Origin: Ectocarpus siliculosus
Taxonomy: Eukaryota; Sar; Phaeophyceae; Ectocarpales; Ectocarpaceae
Assembly: GCA_000310025.1 (NCBI GenBank)
Contig: FN649741.1
Coordinates: 2,885,744-2,914,236 of the forward strand
Direction: 5' to 3'
DNA length: 28,493 nucleotides
Made by a program: the position numbers and the translations under genes. Below, piece after piece: positions 3,733 to 25,797 of the stretch. Each line of letters begins with the position of its first letter. Positions within the stretch are counted from its first letter, which is position 1. The notes beneath the pieces are model-generated. The model was not told the origin of the DNA. It ran no database searches and saw only the letters and a program-made list of their open reading frames with translations.

Positions 3733-4502
3733 CAGGAAATCACATCAAATAACAGCTGCAAGTGAGGGGCAACGGCATAAGCGTTTTTTGATACGCAGAC
3801 AGGGTCGGGGTTGTAAGGAGTGGGGGGGGGGAAGCCAAAGTTTCGATTTACTGTTTTTTGTTTTTCCGACAAAAGGCGCAACGGGCAATACCATTCCTAC
3901 TAACACAAGCATGTAGGGCCAGTTGCTCACCCAGTTGTTCTTATGTTGGTGCAAGTGGGAGCCTATTGTTCTGGACACCATGCTTCTCAGCTGCTGCTGC
4001 GGCACGATGGACCGATGGACCGATGGACCTGGACCCCACTAGCTTTCACTGCTGTCAACCGCCGTTGTACACCTCATGAGAGCTCCAGCACAGCACTCCG
4101 CAGGTGCTATTGTTGCATCAAACCACTACGGATGAAAACATTCATGCACAAATAAAACAAATTGCACATGGGACACAGGAGAACTCACCAGAACCCGACA
4201 GAGAGGAGTACCGGGCGCGCTGGCGGCACGTCAATCCGGAGGTTTGGAGTTTGGAGCCCCAAATGTCGGCAAGGGGTATACGGCTGGTTTGCGCGGCGTT
4301 ACGGTTCTCCTCGGTGTTCCGCCGCTTCCGTTGCTGCTGCTGGTTCTCGTGCGCTGCTCATCACGCGCTCCTCTGCTGCGGCTGCTCAGTTACCACCTAC
4401 GCGCGCGAACACAACTTCATGCGCAAGTGGGGGATAATCGTTGCCGCGGGAACTCGATGCCGCGGATTTGTCTTGCCTACACGGAGTAGCCACGGTCTTG
4501 CC
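3733..4502. promoter_or_regulatory. Shared spacer between divergent genes (putative bidirectional promoter)
   Basis: The start codons of the oxygenase (3732, minus) and the hydrolase-CYTH gene (4503, plus) face away from each other across 770 bp, so both promoters and 5' UTRs should lie here. I see no clear TATA box. There is a perfect triple 8-bp tandem repeat (CGATGGAC) at 4005-4028. The region also contains in-frame ATGs at 4263 and 4419 that could extend the hydrolase N-terminus, so part of it may be coding. The promoter role is inferred only from gene order. Confidence 0.35.
4005..4028. repeat. Three tandem copies of CGATGGAC
   Basis: The 8-mer occurs at 4005-4012, 4013-4020 and 4021-4028 without mismatch, within the spacer between two divergent genes. 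It could be a regulatory site array or a simple slippage product. Confidence 0.8.
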
Positions 4503-7500
4503 ATGGCGACCGGGGATCCAGGTGAGTGAACAAATCGATGGGAATTGCTGCCGAACTTGGGTGCCCTTGTCCCGCTCGCTCTCCCCCAACGCGCCCTTGA
4601 TTAACATACCGTGTGCAGTCTGTCCTTCTTGCACTCGCCTTGCTTTATTGGAAAAGTCGGAGCTGCAATGGAGTGATAATCTTCACGCGTTGTAAGATGT
4701 ATACTGCTGTACTACGGCTGTAGCGGCATAGAGGTAAAAAAGTCGACACATGATTCCCCGCCGTGCACATGTGTGCACGCACAACCGGCATTCAAGGGCT
4801 CTACTCACTCTCTGGTGTATAACATCCGCACGCAGGGTTAGGGCAGCAGCGCTTCGCCTATGCATATTGCCATGGCTTCCTCAGCGGACCAGCATCGATA
4901 AAAGGCCAGGCCCTACGCAAGTCTCTGCTCGAAGTGGATGTGGAGTTGTCGCTTTTGAATCTGAACGGCGGAAACGACCCGGGAGCCATCACATGCTCGG
5001 GAGCGGTGGAGGCGGTACGAGCGTTTCATCTGCAGCAAAAGTGTGCCCTGGGCGACCAAGGCCTCAAGTTACGGCTTGTTGGAAGCAGCCTTGGGGGTTT
5101 CGTCGTTGCAAGGTGCGCAAGTTGTGTGCTCCTTTTCCGATATACTACGACTGTGTGTGGCACCCAATTTGTATTTTGTTCCCTCATATATTTTTGCCAC
5201 CTGTCTTTACGCGTGTGGTTGACCACAACGATATCGGTCTTCGTCAGATACGCCGAGTTGTACCCTGAAGAGGTCGACCGGATCTTCATGCTCTGTCCCA
5301 GCTTCGGCTTGGGGACCAGAGCTGGCAAATTCGCGAGCGAAGAGGAGATGGCCGAGTGGGAGCGGACGGGAGCGAGAGGTACATATCGTTACGGTGTTCT
5401 CACGAAGCTGAGAAGGAAAGCACTGCATGTGGACACCTTATTCTAAAGTGTAGAGCCGTGCGATCTCCACGTTCTTCCAAATCAGGTTACTGTTGTCTAG
5501 CCTCAGGCGTACTAATGTAGTGCACATCATGGCCGATAAGAAAATGACCATGCACCCTTCGCATGTCCATAACATACTTGGTGAGTGCGCGGATTCGCGC
5601 CCTAAAGCTAAGCCGACTGACAGCACATCTTACCTTTCGTCGATGCAACGCCTTCTCTCGTGGGTCGTCCGCCCACAGTCTTTTCCTTATCAACCGGCGG
5701 GGAAGCTAGTGTCCCTTGGACCTTTGTCGAAGAAGCCAGGCTGCAACCCGACTACCCGGCGTACGCCTGTCCAGCGGCGATTGTGCACGGGCTGCAGGAC
5801 GAAGTCGTGCCGGCAACGGTGACCAAATCGCTCGTGGAGGGGAGGTGCGCCATAAAGCAGAGGGTGGTGTTCTGACCTCGGTAAAGTGTCCTTCGTTACT
5901 TTGTCGACTGTGGACTTCAAATTTCCCCCGCAGTATTGTAGTCGCATAGCGTTGGTGATACTCCTCTCTCCTTCCCTCAACATTGCTGCCCTCACGTCGT
6001 GCGTGGAAAAACTCTGCAACGCTGCCGTACTACCAGGGGGGATATGGGGGAATGTTCGTTCGCGACTTTCGTGGAGGACGACCACGCACTCACCAAGCCC
6101 TCAACAATGGCCCTTACAGCCGAGGCGCTGGCTGATTTTTTCGAGCTGGACAGACGAGAGGTCGCAGAAGGAACTGAAGGGGCTGCGGCAGTTGACGACA
6201 CCAACGGAAGGAGGGATCAATCTCCGCCCCAAAGAATCATCGAAGTGAGAAAGAGGAGGGTTAGGTTTACTGACGATGTGCTATTAATGGTAGTCTCTCT
6301 GGGGGATCCTGACGAGATTCAGCACGCTGTTGTGTCTGCACCTCCTACTGGGTTACCGAACTGCCTTATCTTCCACTTGTTGCGAGAGCCTCCATGGAAG
6401 GCACGATGTCGTTGGTTCTGACGAGTCTTCCACGCCGCTGTACAGGTGGAAGCCAAGTTTTCAGCGCATGATGTCGACAAGGTCAAGGTAAGATGATCCT
6501 TCGCGAGGAGCGTTGAGAAGCAAAGCTCACTTGGAACAAGGGTTGCTTGTTGTGGGCTATAGATCGTTGACTCGTATGTCAAAATGTACTTGACGAAGCG
6601 TAGCAGCCACAGTGAGAGGACAACGAAGGATCAGCGCATTTCAAGCAGTTCCACGGCCGTCACAGAGTGTTCAATACAAACAACAGCTGCGAGGCTCAGC
6701 GTCTGCTGTTGCGGTCGGCTCTTCTCTCTGTCCTTACTTTCAAGCACATTTGATACACACGTCGTCTCAGGAAACGGTGCTGGCGCGAGGAGGACACTTC
6801 GTGGGAGAGCAAGTCTTTACAGATGTGTATTGGGATGCGAAAGGCTGCGGGCTGACGGAGATAGATTGGTGGCTCCGAAGCCGTGCCGGTCGATGGGAGC
6901 TCAAGGTAAAGTGGAAGGAGTTGTAGTGGAATATCGGTTTCCAACGATGTTCGCTTGGAGCAGGCGGTACGCACCTCCCTCGATGACCTACCGCTCGTGA
7001 TTGTAAATTGTTATGACTGTTCACGACTTTCTCCCAAACCTGATCTTGGCCTGTGTCCTTTCAGGTACCAGCGGCTGACGTGGGCGAAGGGGTTACTGCG
7101 TACAGAGAGGTGACGGCACCTTCGGAAATCGCGAGCGAGCTACGAGAGGCAGGGTTTCTTGGAGAGTCGAAAACGCACCGCCTTCACGGGTCTCGCATCG
7201 ACAAACGGGTGCTGGAAGCTGCGGGTTTCGAAGCCTTCGCTTCTTTCCGCACCAATAGACTGAAATACCGGTATGTGGCATGCCAGGAGGATGGCCGGGC
7301 GTAGCTTTTGTTTCTGCTGTTAGGAACCTGATGAGAACGCGTGCTCAAGCGGAATGCTCGATCCAAATAACGACGTTGTGCGCATACATGATGGCGAACA
7401 TTGGATATTGGGTAATCACGCAAATGCGTCACGCATTATTCCGCCACCATAGGATATCATGAGCGAGGCATGCCAGTGCTTCATCCGTTTACCTTTGCTC

Positions 7501-9257
7501 ACGCAGGTTGGGTGTATTTGCCGTGGACATCGACCGAGCATCTGGTCGCCAGGTAGAGTTTGGTCACGAAGTGGTGGAGATCGAGACGATATCAAAAGAG
7601 TCGGACGTGTTGTCTGCCAGAGATAGCATAACAGCTTTGGCGCGCTCTCTTGGTGCTCGACGCGAAGGGGAGTCTGGGCGCCCTGTCAAGGTAAGACGCG
7701 TTACCTCGGCGTTTCGCTCATGTTAATTGTTTAGCCCGGGAAAAGCTACGAGTGTTGAGAATGATGTGCAAGATTGAAACGCGGTAATCGCAACGCGAGA
7801 CGGTCCGTGTTGTGTGACCGCTGCCACAACTGAAAAATCTGGGCGTGACAGGTGTTTGCCTGGTCGCTGATACACCTGACTGAAATTTTGGCGTGGTAGT
7901 GGCGCGTGGGGATCATGTTTAGGACAGAGCGTATGCAATTAGTGCTGATGTCTTTGCATGATGTGCATGCTTGGATTTCCTCGTACTGGCTTTGTAGTCT
8001 ACAACTTTCTAACACCCCCAGGGTGTGGAATGGAGTTGACCTGATCGGCGAAAACTATATCCGGCGGTTAGCACTCCCTGGCTTCATAGGAATGCGAGGA
8101 TACCGGTTACACAGGAGGTTTGTTATCATCATTTTGCAGGAATTCTTCTTGTCTTCTCGCATTGCCACTTCCAAAGGATGATACGATCTACTTTTTTCTT
8201 TCGGGCTTGCCCTTGGCTCTCTCTGCCTTTGCCTTTGGTATTTAGTTAGGTCGAGGGATCTACACTTCTCTTCCTGTATTGTTTATTTTTTTTCCTCACG
8301 TTATGCGCCACGGGTTGGAGTAAATGGCACATGTGCTGTGAGCGTTGATTTGAAGTGAAGACAAAAAAAAAATGCATACGAACTTTTTTGTCCGTCAAGA
8401 GTAGGAAGGTGATGAGGATCTTCAACTTTAAGACAACAACAGCAACCACAAAATCGGAGCAACGGCAATTGTGATCGTTGTACTGATGGAAACCTTGCGA
8501 TCGTTGTAAAGGAATGCATCCTTTCATGCGTGTGGACTCGGGGAGGACGGGGTACGGTTCATGCTTCATGTTGGAGAAGGAATTGAATTCGTGAGCTCGG
8601 TATGATCTCAAGGCTCTGGTCGGTCAACTAAGTTACATATCTTTCAAGGTATCTGAGTGTGTCCATACGGGCCTCAATCTGTGTTCTCTGCGACGCCAGG
8701 GCAAGCTGGTGGAATACATGATCAGGAATTGCCCGCGGCAGCTGGAAGTTCTAACAAGGTAAGCCTTGCGAATAAGTTGCGCTTTGGTTCGCTTGGCACT
8801 CAATTGAGGCGCATGTTTCTGGAACAAATGATGAGCACACCGTTCCAGTAGACTGATTGGTGGAGTGTTCGGACGCGAAACACTGCAACATCCGACCACG
8901 TGTCTTGCACGAGCCAAGAATGCTCACGTCCACTCCTGCACCTCGTATCCACCGTCGCGAGGACCGACGTCACCTCCACCCTCTTGGTTCCTGCTTTGCT
9001 TATCTTGCAACCAATTACAAATCCGTGCATTTGCATTCGTAATTGAAACATTCACCTCAGGCAGAGAGCTGTTTGAGACGTGCAAGGCAGCGTGTGACAC
9101 CGGGGAGCATGTGCGTTTGGCTGGTGTTATCTTCAGCCCGAACCTGAGGAGAGCAAACGCGCTTGCCGCAGTACAGGTTCCTATGGTCCCGCCACCTTCT
9201 TGTGGGCACTGCGTGAAGTCGGCGAGATGTTGTTCGCTAGCCCGGTACAACCTGTGA
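4503..9257 (+). CDS. Alpha/beta serine hydrolase fused to CYTH (thiamine-triphosphatase-like) domain, 11 exons, 539 aa
   Basis: Exons are 4503-4521, 4836-5112, 5248-5378, 5679-5844, 6037-6244, 6446-6487, 6771-6905, 7065-7270, 7507-7690, 8700-8758 and 9065-9257. They sum to 1,620 nt and every junction is in phase. Residues 15-230 form an alpha/beta hydrolase of the YqiA/UPF0227-like type: CHGF oxyanion-side motif (18-21), GSSLGG with nucleophile S91, HGLQDEVVP with acid D183, and VEDDHAL with catalytic H214. After an acidic, Gln/Pro-containing linker (about 231-265), residues 267-475 form a CYTH tunnel domain: EVEAK (E267, E269, K271), FTDVYWD, DWWLRSR, RWELK, YREVT, SFRTNRLKYR, VDID (401-404), EIE (419-421) and a final GKLVEYMIRNCP. 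CYTH enzymes hydrolyse triphosphates with Mg2+ (thiamine triphosphate, inorganic tripolyphosphate, RNA 5' ends); the hydrolase substrate is unknown. The start at 4503 has a good context (GCCATGG). Upstream in-frame ATGs at 4419 and 4263 would add 28 or 80 residues, the longer one basic and possibly a targeting peptide. The last exon (residues 477-539) is the weakest call. Confidence 0.8.
6245..6445 (+). other. Intron joining the hydrolase and CYTH halves; retained form ends at 6419-6421
   Basis: The donor is GAA|GTGAGA after 6244 and the acceptor is TACAG|GTGGAA before 6446. Splicing joins ...RIIE to VEAKF and creates the CYTH ExExK signature. The intron is open in the upstream reading frame until a TGA at 6419-6421. 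A retained intron would therefore give a 325-residue product with the full hydrolase triad and no CYTH domain. The splice is supported by phase and motif, not by transcripts. Confidence 0.65.
7691..8699 (+). other. Long intron 9 of the hydrolase-CYTH gene
   Basis: This 1,009-bp intron is bounded by AAG|GTAAGA and CGCCAG|GGC and is far longer than the gene's other introns (135-314 bp). It includes an A-run near 8364 and an open stretch at 8021-8115 that resembles an exon but does not fit the frame or the domain. I recognise no inserted element. Confidence 0.5.
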
Positions 9258-11666: not shown

Positions 11667-13952
11667 CTAGAACTCAAGTTTGTCGAAATTGTTGTGGGGC
11701 CAGTTACCCGCGTCGTTACCCGCGTCCTCCACAGCATGGTTCTTCAAGAATATGTCTTTCCTTCTCATCCGGTTTCGTCGAGCATGTGCTGGGTCTGGGT
11801 GGTAGAAACAGATGTTCGAAGAATGAGTTTTCCGCCTCGCCTTGCACCCTGGATTGGTGCACGGCGGTATGTTGTCGGGATCTGGCTGCCGCCGCCGGTG
11901 GGGTTGGGATGGACGATGCTGGGCACGGGCATGCTGGCCTTCTTGCCTGTCCCGCGTGCGGTTCTGGTCTTCTTGGCTGTCCCGTGAAGGGGCCTGGTCT
12001 TCTTGCTTGTCCCGCTTGCGGCCCTGGCCTTCTTGCCAATCCCGCGTTCGTTTCTGAGACTTCTTCTTGCCTCGCGACCCACGGCTACGATCTTGTTTGA
12101 CCTCACCACCATCGCCCCACTCCCCAGACCCCCCAGGCACTACGTGTTCTTCCGGCTCATCTTGCCACGCAGGGGTGGATCGGGACCCATCGTCAGACAA
12201 GATGCTCTCGACCCTTTCCCGGTCTCCACCGTCGTTTCGGTCTGCACTTCTCCCGTGTCTGGTTTGGAAGCCCCCCACAGGAACAGCTTCGCTTTCAACG
12301 CCACCTGGCACGGTGAGCTGACCCCTGACCACAGAAGAAGAAGAAGAAGACCGGGCATGCGCTGCCCCCTTCAAGCCACCCCAGCCGTGCACCACTTCCT
12401 TCCCATCTCCTACGTCACTGCTACGCTGCGTTTTACTACCGTGCTGAAGTCGATCACCCCCACGTCCCTCTCCTGCGCCTCCTCCACCAGCATCATTCTC
12501 TCTCTTCCGGTGTGGGGGCAGGAAGCCCCCCACAACAGGAGCCACGTCTTCACCAGTACCCGACACGGTCAGCGGACCCCTGGCCGACGATGAAGAAGAC
12601 CGGACAAGCGCTGGTGCTTTCAAACCACCTGAACTTTGCACACCTTCCTTCCCCTCTCCCGCACCACTGCTGCTGCTGTCCTGCGGTCTCGTGCCGTGGT
12701 GAAGCCGATTGTCCTCTGGCGGACGCTCTCCACCGCCACCTCCTTCGCCAGCGTCATTCCTTCTCTTACTCTTCTCCTTCTCCAGTCTTAGAGCGTTACG
12801 ATCTGCACGGTCCACACTTTCCTGGAAAGTCGGGCACGGAGGCTCCGCGTGCTGAAGCCGCTGCAGGTCGGCGCGGAGCGCTCTCTCGAACAACCGTATC
12901 ATAATTGCTTCCCAAAAAGTTGTCTGCCCCCCGTTGGCTTCAATTAACCGGCTCAAGTGATTGGTCAGGCCCATTTGTCGCTGGACCAGCGTCGGGACGG
13001 ATTCGTCCGCAGCTTGGCTAAGAGAAAATAGTGTGTCTGATGTCCGTGCGATACCATCCGCCGGCAGATAGTGGTCGTGGAAAGCATTGTAGACTTCAGC
13101 CCAGGTCGACGGGGGCCGGAAAGGTGGCTTTCCTGCTTGTTGCTGAACGCCCCCTGCTCCCGCCTCTGCCCCTCGCTGCTGGAGGGAGGGAGGCGGGGTA
13201 GGTTCCCACTCCATCTGTCCTGCTTTCAGCGATTTGAAGAACTTCAGGGCTGCACCCTCCAAGACAAACACGACATCTCGGTTCAGAGCCTTATTCACTG
13301 TGCCAGGCGAGCTGCCAGGCAGTGCCGCGACGACAAGTGAGTGGAATCTGTTGAGCACGTCGGACACAGCACCGGGATCCTTGCCGCTGAATTTCGTCAA
13401 TTTCTCGATGCCAGGCGGGAGGATTCTCCGGGGACGAGAGTCAACAACACCACCAACACTACTACTACCACCAGCAGATGATCCGCCAACTGGATCCACT
13501 TCGCCCTCCGGTGCCATCTTGCTGAGCGTCTCCAAAGCCAAAAGCCCGGCATGGTCAAGCTCACCCTTTGCGGCGAGTTTCTGCGAGACGAGTTTTTGGA
13601 GCTGCTCGCGAAGGGTCATCGGCTGCTGCTGCTCCCTAGGCCTACTTTTTTTCTCACCGGGGTGCGGCTTTCCGCCCTCTGGATGTGCGGGCACCGTGGC
13701 TGCGTTCTGCTGTGTCACGGGTGCGGGCGGGTCTTCGCTGGCGATCTCGTTACCTATAATCCTTCTGTTGCTACTGCTGCTGCTGCTGCTGCTGCTGTTG
13801 ATCGCCCTCGCCGATTGCTCTTCATCTAGCAGCGCTCGCACCTCGGGCACCGCCGCTGCCGCTGTGGTCTTGCTGCTGCTGCTGCTGCTGCTGCTGCCTG
13901 CAGCCTCCTCTTCTTTGACACTTTTCTTGCGGCGACCCCTTTCCTCGGACAT
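11667..13952 (-). CDS. Retrotransposon Gag-like protein, 761 aa, no pol nearby
   Basis: This single open exon starts at Met 13952 (MSEERGRRKK). The frame stays open to an upstream Met at 14096, but that extension lacks conserved features. The N-terminus is low complexity, with Ser runs at 20-27 and 53-61. Residues 185-395 resemble the retrotransposon Gag (capsid) domain: IEKLTKFSG, FVLEGAALKFF, STWAEVYNAFHDHYLP, then DESVPTLVQRQMGLTNHLSR and a charged helix. Two diverged repeats of about 85 residues follow (398-482 and 485-568, each containing a GGLK motif, a Ser run and a PLTV/QLTV motif). Next come four 10-residue R-D-x-Q-E-(G/D)-Q repeats (635-673) in a basic region. A zinc-knuckle-like cluster has C698, C703, H710 and C715 (C-x4-C-x6-H-x4-C), wider than the usual CCHC spacing. 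In an element this protein would form the particle and bind RNA. It may be a gag-only (TR-GAG-like) element, a decayed retrotransposon or a domesticated gag gene. Confidence 0.65.
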   Translation of the reverse strand: MSEERGRRKKSVKEEEAAGSSSSSSSSKTTAAAAVPEVRALLDEEQSARAINSSSSSSSSSNRRIIGNEIASEDPPAPVTQQNAATVPAHPEGGKPHPGEKKSRPREQQQPMTLREQLQKLVSQKLAAKGELDHAGLLALETLSKMAPEGEVDPVGGSSAGGSSSVGGVVDSRPRRILPPGIEKLTKFSGKDPGAVSDVLNRFHSLVVAALPGSSPGTVNKALNRDVVFVLEGAALKFFKSLKAGQMEWEPTPPPSLQQRGAEAGAGGVQQQAGKPPFRPPSTWAEVYNAFHDHYLPADGIARTSDTLFSLSQAADESVPTLVQRQMGLTNHLSRLIEANGGQTTFWEAIMIRLFERALRADLQRLQHAEPPCPTFQESVDRADRNALRLEKEKSKRRNDAGEGGGGGERPPEDNRLHHGTRPQDSSSSGAGEGKEGVQSSGGLKAPALVRSSSSSARGPLTVSGTGEDVAPVVGGFLPPHRKRENDAGGGGAGEGRGGDRLQHGSKTQRSSDVGDGKEVVHGWGGLKGAAHARSSSSSSVVRGQLTVPGGVESEAVPVGGFQTRHGRSADRNDGGDRERVESILSDDGSRSTPAWQDEPEEHVVPGGSGEWGDGGEVKQDRSRGSRGKKKSQKRTRDWQEGQGRKRDKQEDQAPSRDSQEDQNRTRDRQEGQHARAQHRPSQPHRRRQPDPDNIPPCTNPGCKARRKTHSSNICFYHPDPAHARRNRMRRKDIFLKNHAVEDAGNDAGNWPHNNFDKLEF
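11934..12053 (-). repeat. Four 30-bp tandem repeats coding for R-D-x-Q-E-x-Q units
   Basis: The gag-like ORF contains four in-frame tandem 30-bp units. On the plus strand each ends near CTGG and includes a CTTCTTG...TCCCG core. They encode DWQEGQ, DKQEDQ, DSQEDQ and DRQEGQ, separated by basic residues. The frame-preserving period and the conservation of the acidic core suggest duplication under coding constraint, or recently. Confidence 0.8.
12249..12761 (-). repeat. Two diverged tandem repeats of about 85 codons in the gag-like ORF
   Basis: Codons 398-482 and 485-568 align by eye. Each unit has NDAG plus a glycine-rich start, RL(H/Q)HG, GEGKEGV or GDGKEVV, GGLK, RSSSSS, RG(P/Q)LTV and a VGGF end. 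A third partial start (DRNDGGDRE) follows. The units are clearly diverged. Confidence 0.75.
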
Positions 13953-14411
13953 GGCGGGAGCTACAGGAGGATGTGCAGTTGATAATGAGGGTGTGGGGAG
14001 GCGTGGTAAGTGGCGAGTCCCGCCGTCCACTTCAAGGAAATGCGTGGCAGGTGCATAAAGACTTAAAGACACACCACTATAATAAGCGAAATGCACCGCT
14101 GCCGGCAGACCCCCCCAAGAAACAATTCACGGAGTTTCTTTTTTTATTACGCCGCATTTTCGGCACACAAGCTCAAACTCGTCGTCTCTCCCGATAGTCA
14201 TCCTTATCCAGCAGGCAGGCAGAAGGGTTTTTCTCACCACTCACTCTAAAGACTTCAATACGTCTCTTAGATTGGGGCATTATCTCGAGCGGTAGTAGTC
14301 GTCTGTGCGTGTATGTATATTATCCGAGAGATTAATTTCTGCTGTATATAGAGGTCGGCAATTGGAATGCTAGATAGACTTGATGTACAGAGAGATGCAC
14401 ATTTCATCTGT

Positions 14412-18656: not shown

Positions 18657-18658
18657 TC
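18635..18658. repeat. (CT/GA)n microsatellite touching the stop codon
   Basis: About eleven CT units on the plus strand run directly into the minus-strand TGA stop, which reads as TGAGAGAGAG. Length changes here would alter only the 3' UTR. Confidence 0.9.
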
Positions 18659-19136
18659 ACCCTAGCAGATCATCGCCGTATATGCCGAAGTCATCGCTGT
18701 CGCCGTGCCGCTGCGGGCCCTTTAGGTACTCTCTGGCGTTGCCTCCGCCGCCGCCGCTGCCGCCGTCGCCAGAGCTACCGAGGACGTCTTCCTGGCGTTG
18801 CGAGGGAAGCGTGTGGAGGGGACCCGCCGAAGCAGAGGACAGCGAGCACGACGACGACAAGCGCGTCTCGTTGACCCCTCCCGGGCCTCGGCGCATGCTG
18901 CCGGAAGTCGCACTGCCTCCGCCGCCGCCGCTGCCGCCACCGCTACCTCCAATAGACTGCCTAGGCGCGGCGGATTCTCGCGGCTCCGCTTGTGCTCCCC
19001 CTTCCGGATTCCGCAGGTAGTCAGCGGGCGGGAGCATTGGAGGGTGGTACTGTTGTTGTTGTTGCTGCTGCTGCTGCTGATGCTGCTGGTGATCGGGCGG
19101 CGGGAGCATCGGCGGGTGGTACTGCTGCCGGTACTG

Positions 19137-19181
<45 letters not shown>

Positions 19182-19461
19182 GAGGTGGTGCTGCTGTTGG
19201 CGATGGTGTAGCAACCGATCTTGCTGATCCTGGCCACCGCCGTCATGCCTCCCTTGCTGAGGCGGCCCAGGCCCCGGTCCCGCCGAGCCCATCCCAACTC
19301 CTCGGACCTCACCCTCTCTACGTACACCGTCGTCACCACCAGCGCCACCAGCAGGGTAAGTGGACGGCATGCCGGCGTTGAAACCCTCCAGTATTAGCTC
19401 AACTCCTCCTTGGGAGAGGTCAGGAGGTAGCATTGGTGGTCCACGGTGCACCCCAGCAGCG

Positions 19462-19523
<62 letters not shown>

Positions 19524-19571
19524 GTCTCCAACGTCCGGAAAGTGCGGCGGGCCGCGATGACCCCCGTACTT

Positions 19572-19628
<57 letters not shown>

Positions 19629-19831
19629 CTGGTCTCCAAGGTCCGGGAAGTACGGAGGGCCCCGGTGAACTCCGGAATGGGAAGAGCTCTGCGAGCTTCC
19701 TCTAGCCAGGGTTGTCAACCGGCGGGGCTGCTGATGCTGGTGCTGCACCTGGTGCTCGCGGCCCTGGGAAGAGGTGCGGCCCAAGAACGGCAACGGGGAG
19801 GCCCCCCTGAAGTAGCCGGGCTCACCTCCCC

Positions 19832-19862
<31 letters not shown>

Positions 19863-22800
19863 GAGACCGCCGCTGCCTCCGCGCGCTGCCCCCTCGGCCA
19901 AGTCGTCCATGTGTGACGGGAGGTCAGTGTACGACTCCACGTCAACCAATCCCGAGAGCTTGGGCGGCGATGCCGGGGGCAGGGAGGCAAGCAACTCTGC
20001 CAGCTGCGTGCCGGCGCATTCCTCCTCCGCCTTGTCGACGTCCGCCCCCCTGGGCACGCCGCCCCCTCTCATCGTGTCTCCTCCTCCTCCTCCTCCATCT
20101 GCCCGCCTTGCGCCCGCTCCCGCCGCTGCCGATCCCACCAGGCCACCCCCGGTGTTGTTGAAGAGCCCGGACATGGCCGGCCAACGATCATCTTGGCTCG
20201 CACCCTGACGCAGTAAATGAACGGAGAGAGCTCCATGTCAACGAACTCGAAGGTTCGGGCGCGCAACAAGTAGCGTAGGGCTAGCTAGACAGGGCCATAG
20301 CTACAGTAGACGAGTGCGGGCGCTTGAGACGGGACTCGTCCCACCACCGCCAATAAACGAACGCGTTTCCAACAAATACACTCTCCATATCTTCACGGCT
20401 GCAAACAAGTGGGATGGGACGGGAAAATACGAAAGTACCTAACCTTCCGCGCGGAGGGCGGGCGGGACACCCCACTGATGTATTACGCTTACCTGGGAGG
20501 CGTCCGGGGTGGGGCAAAAGTTCTTGGTGCCCCGGTCCGTCAGGCGCGAGATGGTCACCACAAGCTGGCAGAAGGTGGACGGCCTGCAGGTGTGCCTGAG
20601 GTATTCTCCCACGTCGGACCCCGGGAGGGGCAGCGCGCACTCGCGTTCCTGTCCCGCAGAGCCAGAGAGCCTCTGCGCGGGCGCCACGAGCTCGTACAGG
20701 CGGGAGTACACGCCGTGCCTCTCGTAGATGAACAGCAGGGCCTTTCGTTTGTTTCGGCAGGCGGGCACATGATTCACGTGAACGGGGCCAGGGTGCGGGG
20801 CATGAGATGGTCAGCACCAAGGGGGAAGGGGGAGAGGGTCTCGCTGTCCTGTCGCAATACAAGCATATTTCTTCGACGCATACCCCACAGCTAGAGTTGC
20901 TGGTTCTGGACTGTGGCAGGCGGTAGCAGGCCAAATACACGCGAGGAAGCCAAACAGGGAGGGCTCTACTAGCACGGTAAAGCACGCCAAGAAGATAGAT
21001 TAGCAAGGCCGCGGAAAAACGTGCTCAGCAACGCCCGGCCTCTTTCTATCGCAATGCGATAGACTACTTGTACGTCCAATGAATGGCGCCGTTTGCAGCC
21101 GCGGCGCGCAAGAAGGGCGAGTAGGCACATGACCCTCTCATGCATACAGTATCTAACAGGGAGTAAAATCTTCCGTTCTGTGCAGACAGCTGCTTCTTAC
21201 CGAAGTTACGGTAGTTGCGATCCAGGACAAGGGCATGACGCGAGTGATGGCCGGGGTGGGGGTCACTCCTTCGGCAACCGACTCGGCGACGGCGATGCTC
21301 TCCTCGCGACGGCCCAGCAGCATGAGGAGCAGCCCCACCAAGGAGCTGAAGAGTCCGTCCAAAACATAGTATCCACCGCAAGGGACACAGGCGAGCGACA
21401 ACGACAGACGTAGGAGGGGGAGGGGGGAGAGTGACCTTGGAGTGAGACCGCAAACAAAGCGATGTCGTTCGTTCGTCACTGTGTCGCGGAAAATTCAAGG
21501 CGATGTGGGCGGTCTGCGGTCGTCAATGGGTTGTACAACTATCGTCACGGCAACAATCGGCCAGCTCCAGGGTAACGCCAGCGTAGCATAGCGCAGCAGC
21601 AGCAGCAGCAGCAGCAGCAGGCGGGAGACTAAGATTAGGGCGTCCTCACAAGCCTATCTAGATTGCGGCTGCCACCACAGAACCAGCCCCGTTTTCAAGC
21701 TACCAGACGATGGGCGTTTCGGACGGGCATCATCGGCGTGGGGCATCAACAAAAAAACACCTGGTCGGACAAGACACGCCCCCCTCCCAACGCCATGCGA
21801 CCACGCACCTGCAAATGAGCCTGGCGAGCGTGTCCCTCTCGCTGATCCTGATGCACGTCACCAGCTCCTCCACGCACCGGAGCAGGGCCGCCTCTCCCCC
21901 CTCGAACGCGAGGGGGTCACCCGCCTGCAGGGCCGCGGGCAGGCCGCGATCCCCCGTCTGGGTCAGCATGGACAGCACGTGGTTGGCCACGTGTAGGACC
22001 TGGGCGGGAAACAACGCGAAGAGAGGGCAAAGGAAGGCACACACGCATAGGCGAGCGGGGAGGGAGGGCGGAGGGTGACGGGATGTGTGATGCATGGTCG
22101 AGAAAAAATGCTCTTGGATGTCCCTAACAGACACAAAACAGCACCCGAGTCAAAATGCTCCCTCCAAATGACCCCTCGTATCCAGGTCCAGTCCACAGCA
22201 ACACATAAAAAAAAAAAAAACAGTGAGCATCATACATACAGCAATAAGCACACACGAATAATAGCCACACTGCCGTGAGGCTGACGTCGTTTCATTGGTC
22301 AGCCGGTTAGCGCGGTCGATGTCAATACTAAGAAACACACGTTCGCCTTCATCCCGCTAAAAGCGTGACACCATTTCCGTCGGCACGCTGGCTTAGCGCG
22401 GCCGATGACATGCAACAACACGCGCGCACGAAACACTCACCCTGTAGCGGCGGTTTCCCCACGTGTGGAAGTTTGGGCGGAGCTCGATCTTCAGCCGCCC
22501 GTGGCTCAGGTGCTCGATGCAGATCTCCAGGTTCAGGGGGAACTCCGGCAGGTTGAGGCAGAAGCTGTGCGCCTGCACCAAGTACCTGTTGAAATGACGA
22601 CGTATCAACAGCGCGTGGGTGAGAAAAGGCACACACAAGGCTCGTGGAAACGGTGGCAGCGTCGTCGTCTATCGTCGCGCCAAAGTGGCGGTGGGGGAGC
22701 CGATTCGAGCCCCCAACCACCCTGTATTGTCTCCATCGTCGCGACCCCGATAAGTAAAAAAACGCATCCACCCAACAGCTTGAAGACAACAAGAGCACAC

Positions 22801-25314
22801 CCACACCGGCAAAAAACAAGAGCACACCCACACCGGCAAAAGGCAGTCAGCCTAACAACCACCACGAAATAAAGACGAGCATCATCTCACAGGTCTGCGC
22901 GGAGCGCCTCCCCGCTGTACGTGTTGAAGTAGGCCAGGCACAAGAACGCGCTAGCGGCCTCCTCGCTGGGGACGTCGAAGATCTCCTTCAGCAGCTGCCG
23001 GGCGTTCTCCGCGAAACCCACCGCCGCCACCCGGTCCCTCGTCACCAGGGCGCCCACGCTCAGGGCAGCCTCGATGAGAGAGCTACGCGCGAACCTGAAG
23101 GTTAGGTCACGGCAATATATCCAAGCCATTACTACAACGTTGTCGGAAGGCCCAGAACAAATGATTACACGACCTGATCGCTTCGCAACGGCATGTCCAA
23201 GCGTTTTTAGGTTGAAAGGCTCGAGAGCAAAAGATGGCGCAACCTGATGGTTACGCAAGGGCAGGTGTCCAAGCGGTTCTTGGCTGAAAAGGCCCGGAGC
23301 GAAAACATGGCACAATCTAGTGTTTATACACGGGCACATCCAAGCGTTTTTCGGTTTGAAGGCTTGGAGCACAAGGTGGCAAAGGACGGGGGTTCGGGTC
23401 GAGGTGGGGAGGGTCTGCTTCTTCCTCTGCGGCAGTTTGCGCCGCGCGCCTGAACGTGGATGCAGGCAACCGATAGACCACTGAGGCATCTTTTCGAGTC
23501 GTGAAGCAGAGCAACAGCGGCGGGAAACCTTTTTTGGTTGCGGTCAGCCAAACAGTCGACCCCGTGCCACATATTCATACAACCCACACATGCATATTGT
23601 AGCACTAAACACGCCGTACTTCTGTCGTAGACCAGAACACGCGTACAACCCACATAGCACCAAACACGTAATACTTTTCCATATACAGAACGCGTAGCGC
23701 CAAGGGGCTGCCGGCGTGGCCGGTGGCGCTCTACCTTTCGAAGTCAGTGTCGGAACCGCCAGACCCCGGAGACAGCCTGCGGCGCTTTTTGCTCGCCCCG
23801 TTCATCCCGTCCACGACGATGTCGTCGCGCATTGCGGCGACGACGTCGCTGCTGATGAGCGGCAGGAACTCATTCACGGTGCTGAGCGCAGCAGAGGCCG
23901 CGCGCCCAAAACCGCGAGCAAGGACAAGGGAGATCGAACAACGTTCGGCGGGAAGGGGTTGCGTGAGGGATGGATGGGACCCAGGTTGGACCAAGGGTAG
24001 GGATGTAGCAACACGAGCAACAGACAACTTCGGCGGGAAATATCACACGTTGATAGGATGGTCAAGCGAGATTCTGCTGCCGCTTTTCGTGCTGAATCAA
24101 CTCGACCGCTAATTCCCTCTTGCGCTAGCCTTGGGCGGTGGTCGTGACCTTCGAGTGGCACAGACACGACGGATGGTAAAAAAAGTGCATATACCCCTAA
24201 AACAGGACACGAACACAAGGGTACACAGACCGCAGTCGTCTCCTCTTTCTCACTTCAAGAAAACGCCAAGCAGGCCGTGATCTCTGTCGCTCAGGGCCCG
24301 CGAGGTGCCGTTGGCCGCTGCCGCTGCCGAAGGCGCCGCGCTCGGATGCGCCGCCGGATTGCCGGCGAGGTCGCTGCTGCTGCTGTAGCCACTTCTGGCG
24401 CCGGCAGACACCCGCCGCCCGCCCTTGCCGGCGTCCCTCCCCTCCGCTCCTCTTCCTCCGCCGCCTCTTCCGCCTGCATCCACGGCGCCCCCAGCCCCCC
24501 CGCGCTTGCCGCCCCCCCTGGTCCCACCGGCGGCGGCGCCCCCGCGCCTGGCGCCCCTGCCGCTGGTGGCAGGAGCTCGCGCGGAGGCTCCTTGAAGGCG
24601 GCCGTCTCCACCGCCGTCGTCCGCCCTGCCGTCGACGGATTGCCACCTCTTCCTTCCCTCCACGCGCGCGATCCCGCTCTCGGACTCCGACGAACCGGTG
24701 CCCTGCCTCGTGGCGCTGGTCCATCCCCCGCTGACGCCCTTGGCAAGCTCGGGCGGGGTTCCCGGAGAGGAGTCGGTGCCGGCGGCGACCGCGTTGGGAG
24801 CCAGCGGGAACAGGGTGGATCCGGCCGAGGCGCCGCTGCCGCCGCCGGCCGCGCCGGCGCGAGTCTTTGCCAGCCGCTTGTCCCCGGCCTTGGCGGCCGA
24901 CGCCTGCCTGGTCGCGACGCCGGCGCGCTGCTGCTGCTGCGCCGCCGGCGGTGGCGGCGCCGGCAGCAGGGACGGTAAGGTCTTGTTGTAGCTTCCGTTG
25001 GCAGCAGTGGTGCCGCCATTCTCGGCGTTATTCTCCGCCCCGTCAGCCCCGTCGCCGCCGGTAAGGCCGATGATGCGCTTGCCGCCGCCCCGTGGCGACA
25101 GCATGGCGTCCCTGAGAAGGGAACCGGGGGGGGGCGCCGTATTCCTGGCGGCCGCGCCCTCCGTAGCGTGGTTGGCGGCGGCGGCGGCGGCGGCCGCGGC
25201 GGCGGCTGCTGCGGCGAGAAGAGCTGCTTTCCTGGGGCCGGTCGGTCGCTTCACGCTGAAGTGGCAAGTCACGCCGCGTTTTCGGCATGCCTGGCAGGGC
25301 TTTAGGCCATCACA
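18657..25314 (-). CDS. Zn2Cys6 transcription-factor-like protein with polyQ C-terminus, 5'-partial, 8 exons, 1,229 codons seen
   Basis: Exons (minus) are 25314-24254, 23881-23735, 23094-22891, 22585-22441, 21999-21809, 21345-21201, 20741-20493 and 20204-18657. They total 3,690 nt with all phases consistent. The first seen exon begins with CDGLKPCQACRKRGVTC, which has the spacing of cysteines 3-6 of a Zn2Cys6 cluster (C-x5-C-x2-C-x6-C). The C-x2-C half should be on an upstream exon that I did not find. Then come a poly-Ala tract, a long Ala/Gly/Ser linker with basic patches, and a basic KKRRR patch (about 389-393). A helical middle region (about 345-714) resembles the fungal-type regulatory domain in style (SLIEAALSVGALVT, ENARQLLKEIFD, AFLCLAYFNTYSGE, LLFIYERHGVYSRLYELV). 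The last exon (715-1229) is low complexity, with four Gln tracts interleaved with RGPP/HPPMLPP motifs, Gly-rich linkers and an acidic end (SDDFGIYGDDLLG). The expected role is a nuclear DNA-binding regulator with a Gln-rich activation region. Introns are 288-640 bp and carry minisatellites. Confidence 0.75.
19030..19700 (-). repeat. Modular RGPP/HPPMLPP plus poly-Gln repeat array
   Basis: Within the last exon, five related units are read on the minus strand: HRGPPYFPDLGDQ plus Gln run, HRGPPHFPDVGD plus Gln run, HRGPPMLPPD, YHPPMLPPPD plus Gln run, and YHPPMLPPAD. The Gln tracts are encoded near 19571-19632, 19464-19523, 19134-19178 and 19051-19088 by mixed CAG and CAA codons. The conserved Pro-rich blocks between unstable Gln runs indicate duplication of a whole module and not only triplet slippage. 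Confidence 0.8.
21593..21621. repeat. (AGC)n microsatellite in an intron
   Basis: An uninterrupted AGC/CAG run of about ten units lies in the intron between 21808 and 21346 of the zinc-cluster gene. Confidence 0.85.
22790..22841. repeat. 27-bp tandem duplication in an intron
   Basis: Two copies of CAAGAGCACACCCACACCGG plus an A-run begin at 22790 and 22817. They lie inside the intron 22890-22586 of the zinc-cluster gene. Confidence 0.85.
23140..23385. repeat. 72-bp minisatellite, about 3.3 copies, in an intron
   Basis: Units starting at 23194, 23266 and 23338 share TGTCCAAGCG (or ATCCAAGCG), a GGTTGAAAGGC-like block and AGCAAAAGATGGCGCAA-like segments. A partial copy lies upstream from about 23140. 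The copies are diverged by eye. The array sits in the 640-bp intron 23734-23095 of the zinc-cluster gene. Confidence 0.75.
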
Positions 25315-25797
25315 CTGGAGGGGACGGGAGATCCAAGGCGGCGAGTGAGGACGGGGGCGCGTGACCGTAGAGAACAACACAAGCTATACCGCAAGATTGC
25401 GTGTCATCACATCCCCGTGCGGTCGTTTTTAAAACATTTCACCGATTCATTTTCATCGCACAGGACCCTGAGCGGAAATCGAAACAAATCAGTTGGTTTT
25501 GGGAAATTAACGCACACCCCTGTGCGAAACTCGGCATCTGCAGCACTCGAATGAATCCTTGCGGACACACGAACCCCTTGGTCGTCCTGCAGTTGCAGGC
25601 TACACACGCAATGTACACACACAATCAGTCAACCAATTAGCCCGGTGGATGCTACTGTATTACTTAGAGAACCATACACAAACAAAAAACGCGGCGAAAT
25701 AAGAAAGTGGCGAACTAAGGATCCCGCCCGCCGGCCGCGGAACGAAATTTCCGCCGTCGAGTTGTGAGCACAGGCGTCACACCACCACTTGGCGGTC

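Follow-up and report, generated by a model that had tools for sequence, protein, structure and literature searches.

Organization of the locus

The window analyzed here comprises 28,493 nucleotides of Ectocarpus siliculosus (contig FN649741.1 of assembly GCA_000310025.1), and the gene under study lies at positions 4503-9257 on its forward strand, where it is predicted to join an alpha/beta serine hydrolase to a CYTH triphosphatase domain. A first-pass annotation had chained eleven exons into one phase-consistent frame and read it as a fusion of these two domains. The exons, when rebuilt from the window, gave a spliced frame of 1620 nt encoding 539 amino acids (aa) and a stop codon, without an internal stop and with GT...AG at the ends of 10 of 10 introns. 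The fusion itself was likewise supported by the single spliced frame with Pfam matches for both halves and by a bridging exon, exon 5, and we regard the observation of one frame for two predicted enzymes as confirmed. The parts of the gene are as follows.

4263..4502 (+), candidate N-terminal extension: in frame, 80 aa ahead of Met1; Arg-rich and presequence-like by eye, or 5' untranslated region (by inference)
4503..4521 (+), exon 1: start ATG in the context GCCATGG, aa 1-7; in the frame of exon 2, which is open from 4823, no Met precedes the hydrolase motif
4836..5112 (+), exon 2: aa 7-99, N-terminal half of the hydrolase with the nucleophile elbow G-S-S91-L-G; UPF0227 exceeds its cut-off here even unspliced
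5248..5378 (+), exon 3: hydrolase, aa 99-143
5679..5844 (+), exon 4: hydrolase, aa 143-198, putative catalytic Asp183 (HGLQDEVVP), aligned with HGMKDEIVP of ABHD10
6037..6244 (+), exon 5: bridging exon, aa 198-267, with putative catalytic His214 (EDDHALT), a polar linker at about aa 238-262, and Glu267
6245..6445 (+), intron 5: domain junction; retention would add 58 residues before a stop at 6419-6421
6446..6487 (+), exon 6: CYTH V-E269-A-K271-F, aa 268-281
6771..6905 (+), exon 7: CYTH, aa 282-326, with Tyr301, W315-L-R317-S-R319 (the WxRxR of thiamine triphosphatases) and WELK326
7065..7270 (+), exon 8: CYTH, aa 327-395, with Tyr339 and Arg391
7507..7690 (+), exon 9: CYTH, aa 395-456, with VDID and E419-x-E421
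8700..8758 (+), exon 10: aa 457-476, with the plug helix K458-LVEYM
9065..9257 (+), exon 11: aa 476-539 and stop, a C-terminal tail that matches no Pfam family

The introns were 135 to 1009 bases long, and the GC content was 0.58 in the coding parts versus 0.49 in the introns. The splice chain was drawn from the sequence alone, and it was chosen after the first-pass annotation and the motifs were known. For the last exon, two AG acceptors lie 4 bases apart: the acceptor at 9061 would end the protein early, near residue 480 and past the CYTH plug helix, and the one at 9065 gives the 539-aa protein ending at 9257, as annotated before. The latter was taken to follow the previously annotated gene and the former was set aside for the model; both retain the hydrolase and CYTH domains, and the protein is least certain over its last 60 residues.

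The frame is also open upstream of Met1, and the 86 residues from an ATG at 4263 to the end of exon 1 include 11 Arg, 1 Lys, 1 Asp and 1 Glu. Although it looks by eye like an organelle presequence, this extension may equally well belong to the 5' untranslated region. Two open reading frames (ORFs) of the region gave sub-threshold Pfam matches that were taken as chance, namely the upstream ORF at 4080-4529 (Inositol_P, 16 bits against a cut-off of 27) and the raw ORF at 5942-6421 (sub-threshold matches only, the best being DUF2336, 15.6 bits against 34.6).

The N-terminal half resembles UPF0227 and ABHD10 hydrolases

A Pfam search of the spliced protein placed the N-terminal half above the cut-offs of three hydrolase families: Hydrolase_4 (30.5 bits, cut-off 27, E 2.9e-7), Abhydrolase_1 (30.4 bits, cut-off 25.8, E 4e-7) and UPF0227 (PF05728; 22.8 bits, cut-off 21, E 9.5e-5, profile positions 2-80 of 187). 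Abhydrolase_6 stayed below its cut-off. When the two halves were searched apart they kept their Pfam matches, UPF0227 scoring 22.8-24.8 bits across searches against the cut-off of 21. The UPF0227 match did not depend on the splice choices, as the raw unspliced ORF at 4823-5446 also passed (24.4 bits, cut-off 21), and it was the sole UPF0227 match among those listed for the 189-Mb genome.

The order of residues is that of an alpha/beta serine hydrolase, with a G-x-S-x-G elbow followed by Asp and His; the annotated triad of S91, D183 and H214 was found at exactly these places. The closest solved relative was mitochondrial ABHD10 (PDB 6ny9), with E 6.2e-6 over residues 86-189, in which Ser91 and Asp183 align, and a cinnamoyl esterase (PDB 7xrh, E 0.0061) aligned its Ser, Asp and His with Ser91, Asp183 and His214.

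The name "YqiA-like" given to this half in the first-pass annotation held only in part. UPF0227 passed its cut-off, but Hydrolase_4 and Abhydrolase_1 scored higher, the YqiA equivalog (NF008291) scored 14.8 bits where its cut-off is 252, and the closest structure was ABHD10. Of the 11 NCBIfam families listed for the spliced protein, not one reached its cut-off. Because UPF0227 passed and the YqiA equivalog and the other NCBIfam families failed, the evidence supports no finer name for the N-terminal half than a putative "UPF0227/ABHD10-like serine hydrolase".

The C-terminal half is of the thiamine triphosphatase type

In the spliced protein, residues 266-444 matched the Pfam family CYTH (PF01928) with 38.6 bits (cut-off 23.2) and an E-value of 1.3e-9, which is slightly flattered because the splice chain followed the first-pass annotation and the motifs; the half alone scored 40.4 bits. 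The combined domain search proposed by that annotation thus returned both the CYTH and the hydrolase families above their Pfam cut-offs, and the CYTH motifs that it had listed were present in the spliced protein. The CYTH match rests on the splice chain, because single CYTH exons match no CYTH model: unspliced, none of the three ORFs with CYTH exons matched and no match was found genome-wide, which we read as a limit of exon-by-exon searching and not as absence of the domain.

A search of the PDB with the CYTH half (E<=10) gave 8 matches, the best five of which were thiamine triphosphatases (ThTPases; E 1.8e-12 to 1.2e-10); the remaining three (E 0.38 to 1.8) were not CYTH enzymes, and no other CYTH enzyme was listed. 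PDB 2jmu is the mouse and 3tvl the human thiamine triphosphatase. In the alignment to 2jmu, 62 of 196 aligned residues were identical (31.6%). A comparison was made at 16 mouse ThTPase positions, E63, D145, E157, E159 and K193 among them. Identity was found at 14 of the 16 in mouse numbering (E7, E9, K11, Y39, W53, R55, R57, E63, K65, Y79, R125, E157, E159 and K193). Both metal motifs are present, ExExK as E267-V-E269-A-K271 and ExE as E419-I-E421; W315-L-R317-S-R319 aligns with W53, R55 and R57, and Y301, K326 and K458 are the counterparts of the Tyr39/Lys65 dyad and the plug-helix Lys193. Roles in the mouse enzyme have been described for W53, R55, R57 and the ExE motif (PMC8233210), Y39 and K65 form the catalytic dyad of ThTPase (PMC8615392), and Y79, R125 and M195 are given as mouse ThTPase positions (PMC4641920).

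Features of other CYTH classes were looked for as well. The HF motif of class IV adenylyl cyclases is absent before ExExK, where PPQRII precedes E267, and the cyaB (cyclase) model scored 24 bits against a cut-off of 57.95. The plant TTM1/2 type has an additional kinase domain and lacks ExExK (PMC8233210); among the five Pfam matches of the spliced protein there was no kinase family, and ExExK is present. The annotation as a CYTH domain was sound and can be refined: by its PDB matches and active-site residues, this half is specifically of the thiamine triphosphatase type, reaching through plug-helix Lys458.

It is rather unlikely that the CYTH half is instead a tripolyphosphatase or pyrophosphatase carrying the W/YxRxR motif. 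The aromatic position of WxRxR also occurs in cluster 7, which contains the pyrophosphate-preferring plant TTM1/2 (PMC8233210), and the ThTPase orthologues of fish and pig are almost inactive (PMC8615392). Cluster 7 members are, however, described as devoid of ExExK (PMC8233210), a motif that the fusion possesses, the Tyr39/Lys65 dyad positions are kept, and the PDB search listed five ThTPases and no other CYTH enzyme.

The two halves meet within exon 5

Exon 5 encodes His214 of the hydrolase and ends with the codon for Glu267, the residue with which the CYTH motif ExExK begins. If exon 6 is read without the splice, Gln stands before VEAK, an in-frame stop lies at 6419, nine codons upstream, and no Met occurs between. 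A CYTH protein with the full metal-binding motif needs exon 5, because Glu267 is the last codon of that exon and unspliced exon 6 has Gln in its place. In the predicted frame, the hydrolase and CYTH halves are not cleanly separable.

These features bear on the alternative that two separate proteins arise from overlapping transcripts, a hydrolase ending in retained intron 5 at the stop at 6419-6421 and a CYTH protein beginning at Met201 or Met222. Intron 5, when retained, is indeed open for 58 codons before the stop, and both methionines are in frame within exon 5. Nevertheless, we consider this arrangement improbable: the CYTH motif has its first catalytic Glu in exon 5, in phase with the hydrolase frame, no independent start is found just upstream of exon 6, and the two-protein arrangement itself requires the 6244|6446 splice and a common exon 5.

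Searches for related sequences

No second copy of the gene was found in the 189-Mb genome, within the limits set by assembly gaps; 9 of 10 matches were the gene's own exons, and the other (contig C24) had an E-value of 0.54. With the 237-aa hydrolase half, tblastn against plasmids gave no match at 1e-3, and at E<=10 it gave 38 records, of which 20 were listed; identity was below 60% in all of them, and no match extended over 80% of the query. The CYTH half matched no phage at E<=0.1, and pattern scans of viral contigs with each half left 0 of 5 and 0 of 14 pattern matches confirmed.

Genome contigs were scanned with the hydrolase half alone, and one of the 28 pattern matches (L001) was confirmed. 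It was rejected as a chance match over 26 residues; the 394-aa ORF in which it lies is no hydrolase and appears by eye to be a proline dehydrogenase. When the fusion (476 aa) was compared with 395 genomes of the phylum of L001, two matched at E<=1e-4, within hydrolase residues 15-121 only, and these were set aside as, by eye, ordinary alpha/beta hydrolases; the CYTH half matched 0 of the 395. The collections searched hold no algal proteomes, and these results say nothing on rarity in stramenopiles.

Other loci in the window and the genome

Elsewhere in the window, the reverse strand carries three long ORFs:

11667-14126 (-): 819-aa ORF, probably a gag-like gene of a retroelement (Retrotrans_gag sub-threshold, 22.7 bits against 24.1)
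18657-20237 (-): 526-aa ORF containing long runs of Gln; no Pfam family matched at E<=0.01
24250-25383 (-): 377-aa ORF, a possible transcription factor (match to profile positions 12-36 of 39 of the fungal-type Zn(2)-Cys(6) cluster, just above the cut-off with 22 bits against 21)

Outside the window, triosephosphate isomerase (TPI) exons at C49:154710-151818 (-) are followed on the same strand by exons for the GAPDH C-domain at 148663-147520 (locus C49:147520-154710), and separate TPI exons (contig C126) and GAPDH exons (C33, C32 and C118) occur elsewhere in the genome. The layout on C49 is consistent with a TPI-GAPDH fusion. Such a fusion is reported from oomycetes, diatoms and brown algae, and also from a rhizarian and an apusozoan, in PMC5715807, which cites a paper whose title announces a broad occurrence of the fusion in eukaryotes. 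The layout fits a stramenopile host without proving it, because the fusion has also been reported in non-stramenopiles (PMC5715807).

Proposed function of the fused protein

We favor, with a probability of about 0.62, the reading that one gene gives rise to one two-domain protein, consisting of a UPF0227/ABHD10-type esterase or thioesterase and a CYTH domain of the thiamine triphosphatase type. What was computed directly is the open frame after splicing, the exon that bridges the domains, the matches to families and the conservation of active-site residues, and we infer from the sequence that the protein would be expressed as a single chain and that both halves would be catalytic, with the substrates named below. 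Residues from about 1 to 237 would form the alpha/beta serine hydrolase (Ser91-Asp183-His214), for which the cleavage of small acyl esters or thioesters, with an acyl-serine intermediate, is the most likely reaction. A polar stretch of about 25 residues would link it to the CYTH (triphosphate tunnel) domain at residues from about 262 to 475, most likely converting thiamine triphosphate (ThTP) to the diphosphate and phosphate. A two-metal mechanism as in mouse ThTPase may be expected, in which Trp315 would stack on the thiazole ring.

Several observations weigh against this reading. The in-frame Met201 and Met222 would allow translation of the CYTH half only, and retention of intron 5 would allow a hydrolase-only protein. 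The hydrolase half narrowly exceeds the cut-offs of three overlapping Pfam families (by 1.8 to 4.6 bits) and reaches that of no NCBIfam family, and because of this its substrate is not predictable. In the ThTPase alignment, 2 of the 16 positions differ, mouse Asp145 standing opposite Ser407 and Met195 opposite Val460; the first mismatch is probably a matter of gap placement, because VDID lies just upstream.

One half of the fused protein might also be catalytically dead and serve as a binding or regulatory module. A hydrolase and a ThTPase have no evident common substrate, and the UPF0227 match covers only positions 2-80 of 187; against this stand the full triad, the 14 of 16 ThTPase positions and the intact reading frame, and we rate this explanation as improbable.

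With respect to the role of the two-domain enzyme, the most speculative proposal is that both halves are clean-up enzymes for unwanted metabolite forms, possibly in an organelle; coupling of the two activities, raised in the first-pass annotation, is speculation. An organelle location would fit, because ThTP synthesis has been connected with ATP synthase and, for plants, with photosynthetic processes (PMC8615392). A more elaborate proposal, which we hold to be doubtful, is a stramenopile enzyme with two activities, a genuine specific ThTPase covalently joined to an ABHD10/UPF0227-like acyl esterase, which, translated from the ATG at 4263 with an organelle presequence, would clear ThTP and acyl adducts together at the site of ATP-synthase ThTP production.

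According to a 2021 review, specific ThTPase is not known from microorganisms, fungi or plants (PMC8615392). A ThTPase-type active site in a probable stramenopile gene either challenges this animals-only distribution or means that the sequence signature fails to predict activity, and the covalent partner is a concrete lead to what ThTP hydrolysis connects with in these organisms. Among the titles and abstract openings of the papers listed by the literature searches, no description of a pair of an esterase and a ThTPase-type CYTH domain was found, and in the main text of an oomycete domain-fusion paper the terms CYTH, thiamin, esterase and hydrolase are absent (PMC2705460). Similar predicted proteins may well be present, without comment, among the entries of public protein databases.

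Comparison with known systems

The hydrolase half is like the UPF0227 esterases of the YqiA-YcfP group (PF05728), above the Pfam cut-off, in the HGF...GSSLGG region, but differs from them in that the match is limited to profile positions 2-80 of 187 and lies far under the YqiA cut-off. A 23-kDa YqiA/YcfP esterase of Pseudomonas acts on short-chain p-nitrophenyl esters (PMC13230378). With ABHD10, an acyl-glucuronide esterase and S-depalmitoylase that acts on acyl glucuronides and S-palmitoyl proteins (PMC8389839), the half has the Ser and Asp motifs in common, at weak similarity; the available part of PMC8389839 mentions no CYTH domain in ABHD10, whereas the fusion protein has one.

Joining of CYTH to a second domain is known from YgiF (CYTH-CHAD), plant TTM1/2 (with a kinase) and fusions with an HD hydrolase or an exopolyphosphatase, the listed partners being HD hydrolase, exopolyphosphatase, nucleotidyl kinase and CHAD (PMC8233210). 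That list includes no alpha/beta serine hydrolase, unlike the seaweed gene. Neither YgiF, a tripolyphosphatase, nor TTM1/2, with their preference for pyrophosphate, is a ThTPase (PMC8615392). Of the ten main CYTH clusters, clusters 1, 4 and 7 include multidomain members, and the ThTPases form a separate cluster 8 with lengths fitting a single domain (PMC8233210). The mammalian 25-kDa thiamine triphosphatase (THTPA; PDB 3bhd, 3tvl, 5a64, 5a65 and 2jmu) shares with the C-terminal half the CYTH fold by sequence, ExExK, WxRxR, the Tyr/Lys dyad, ExE and the plug-helix Lys. Human THTPA is a protein of 230 residues (PMC8615392), whereas the seaweed CYTH domain follows a predicted serine hydrolase.

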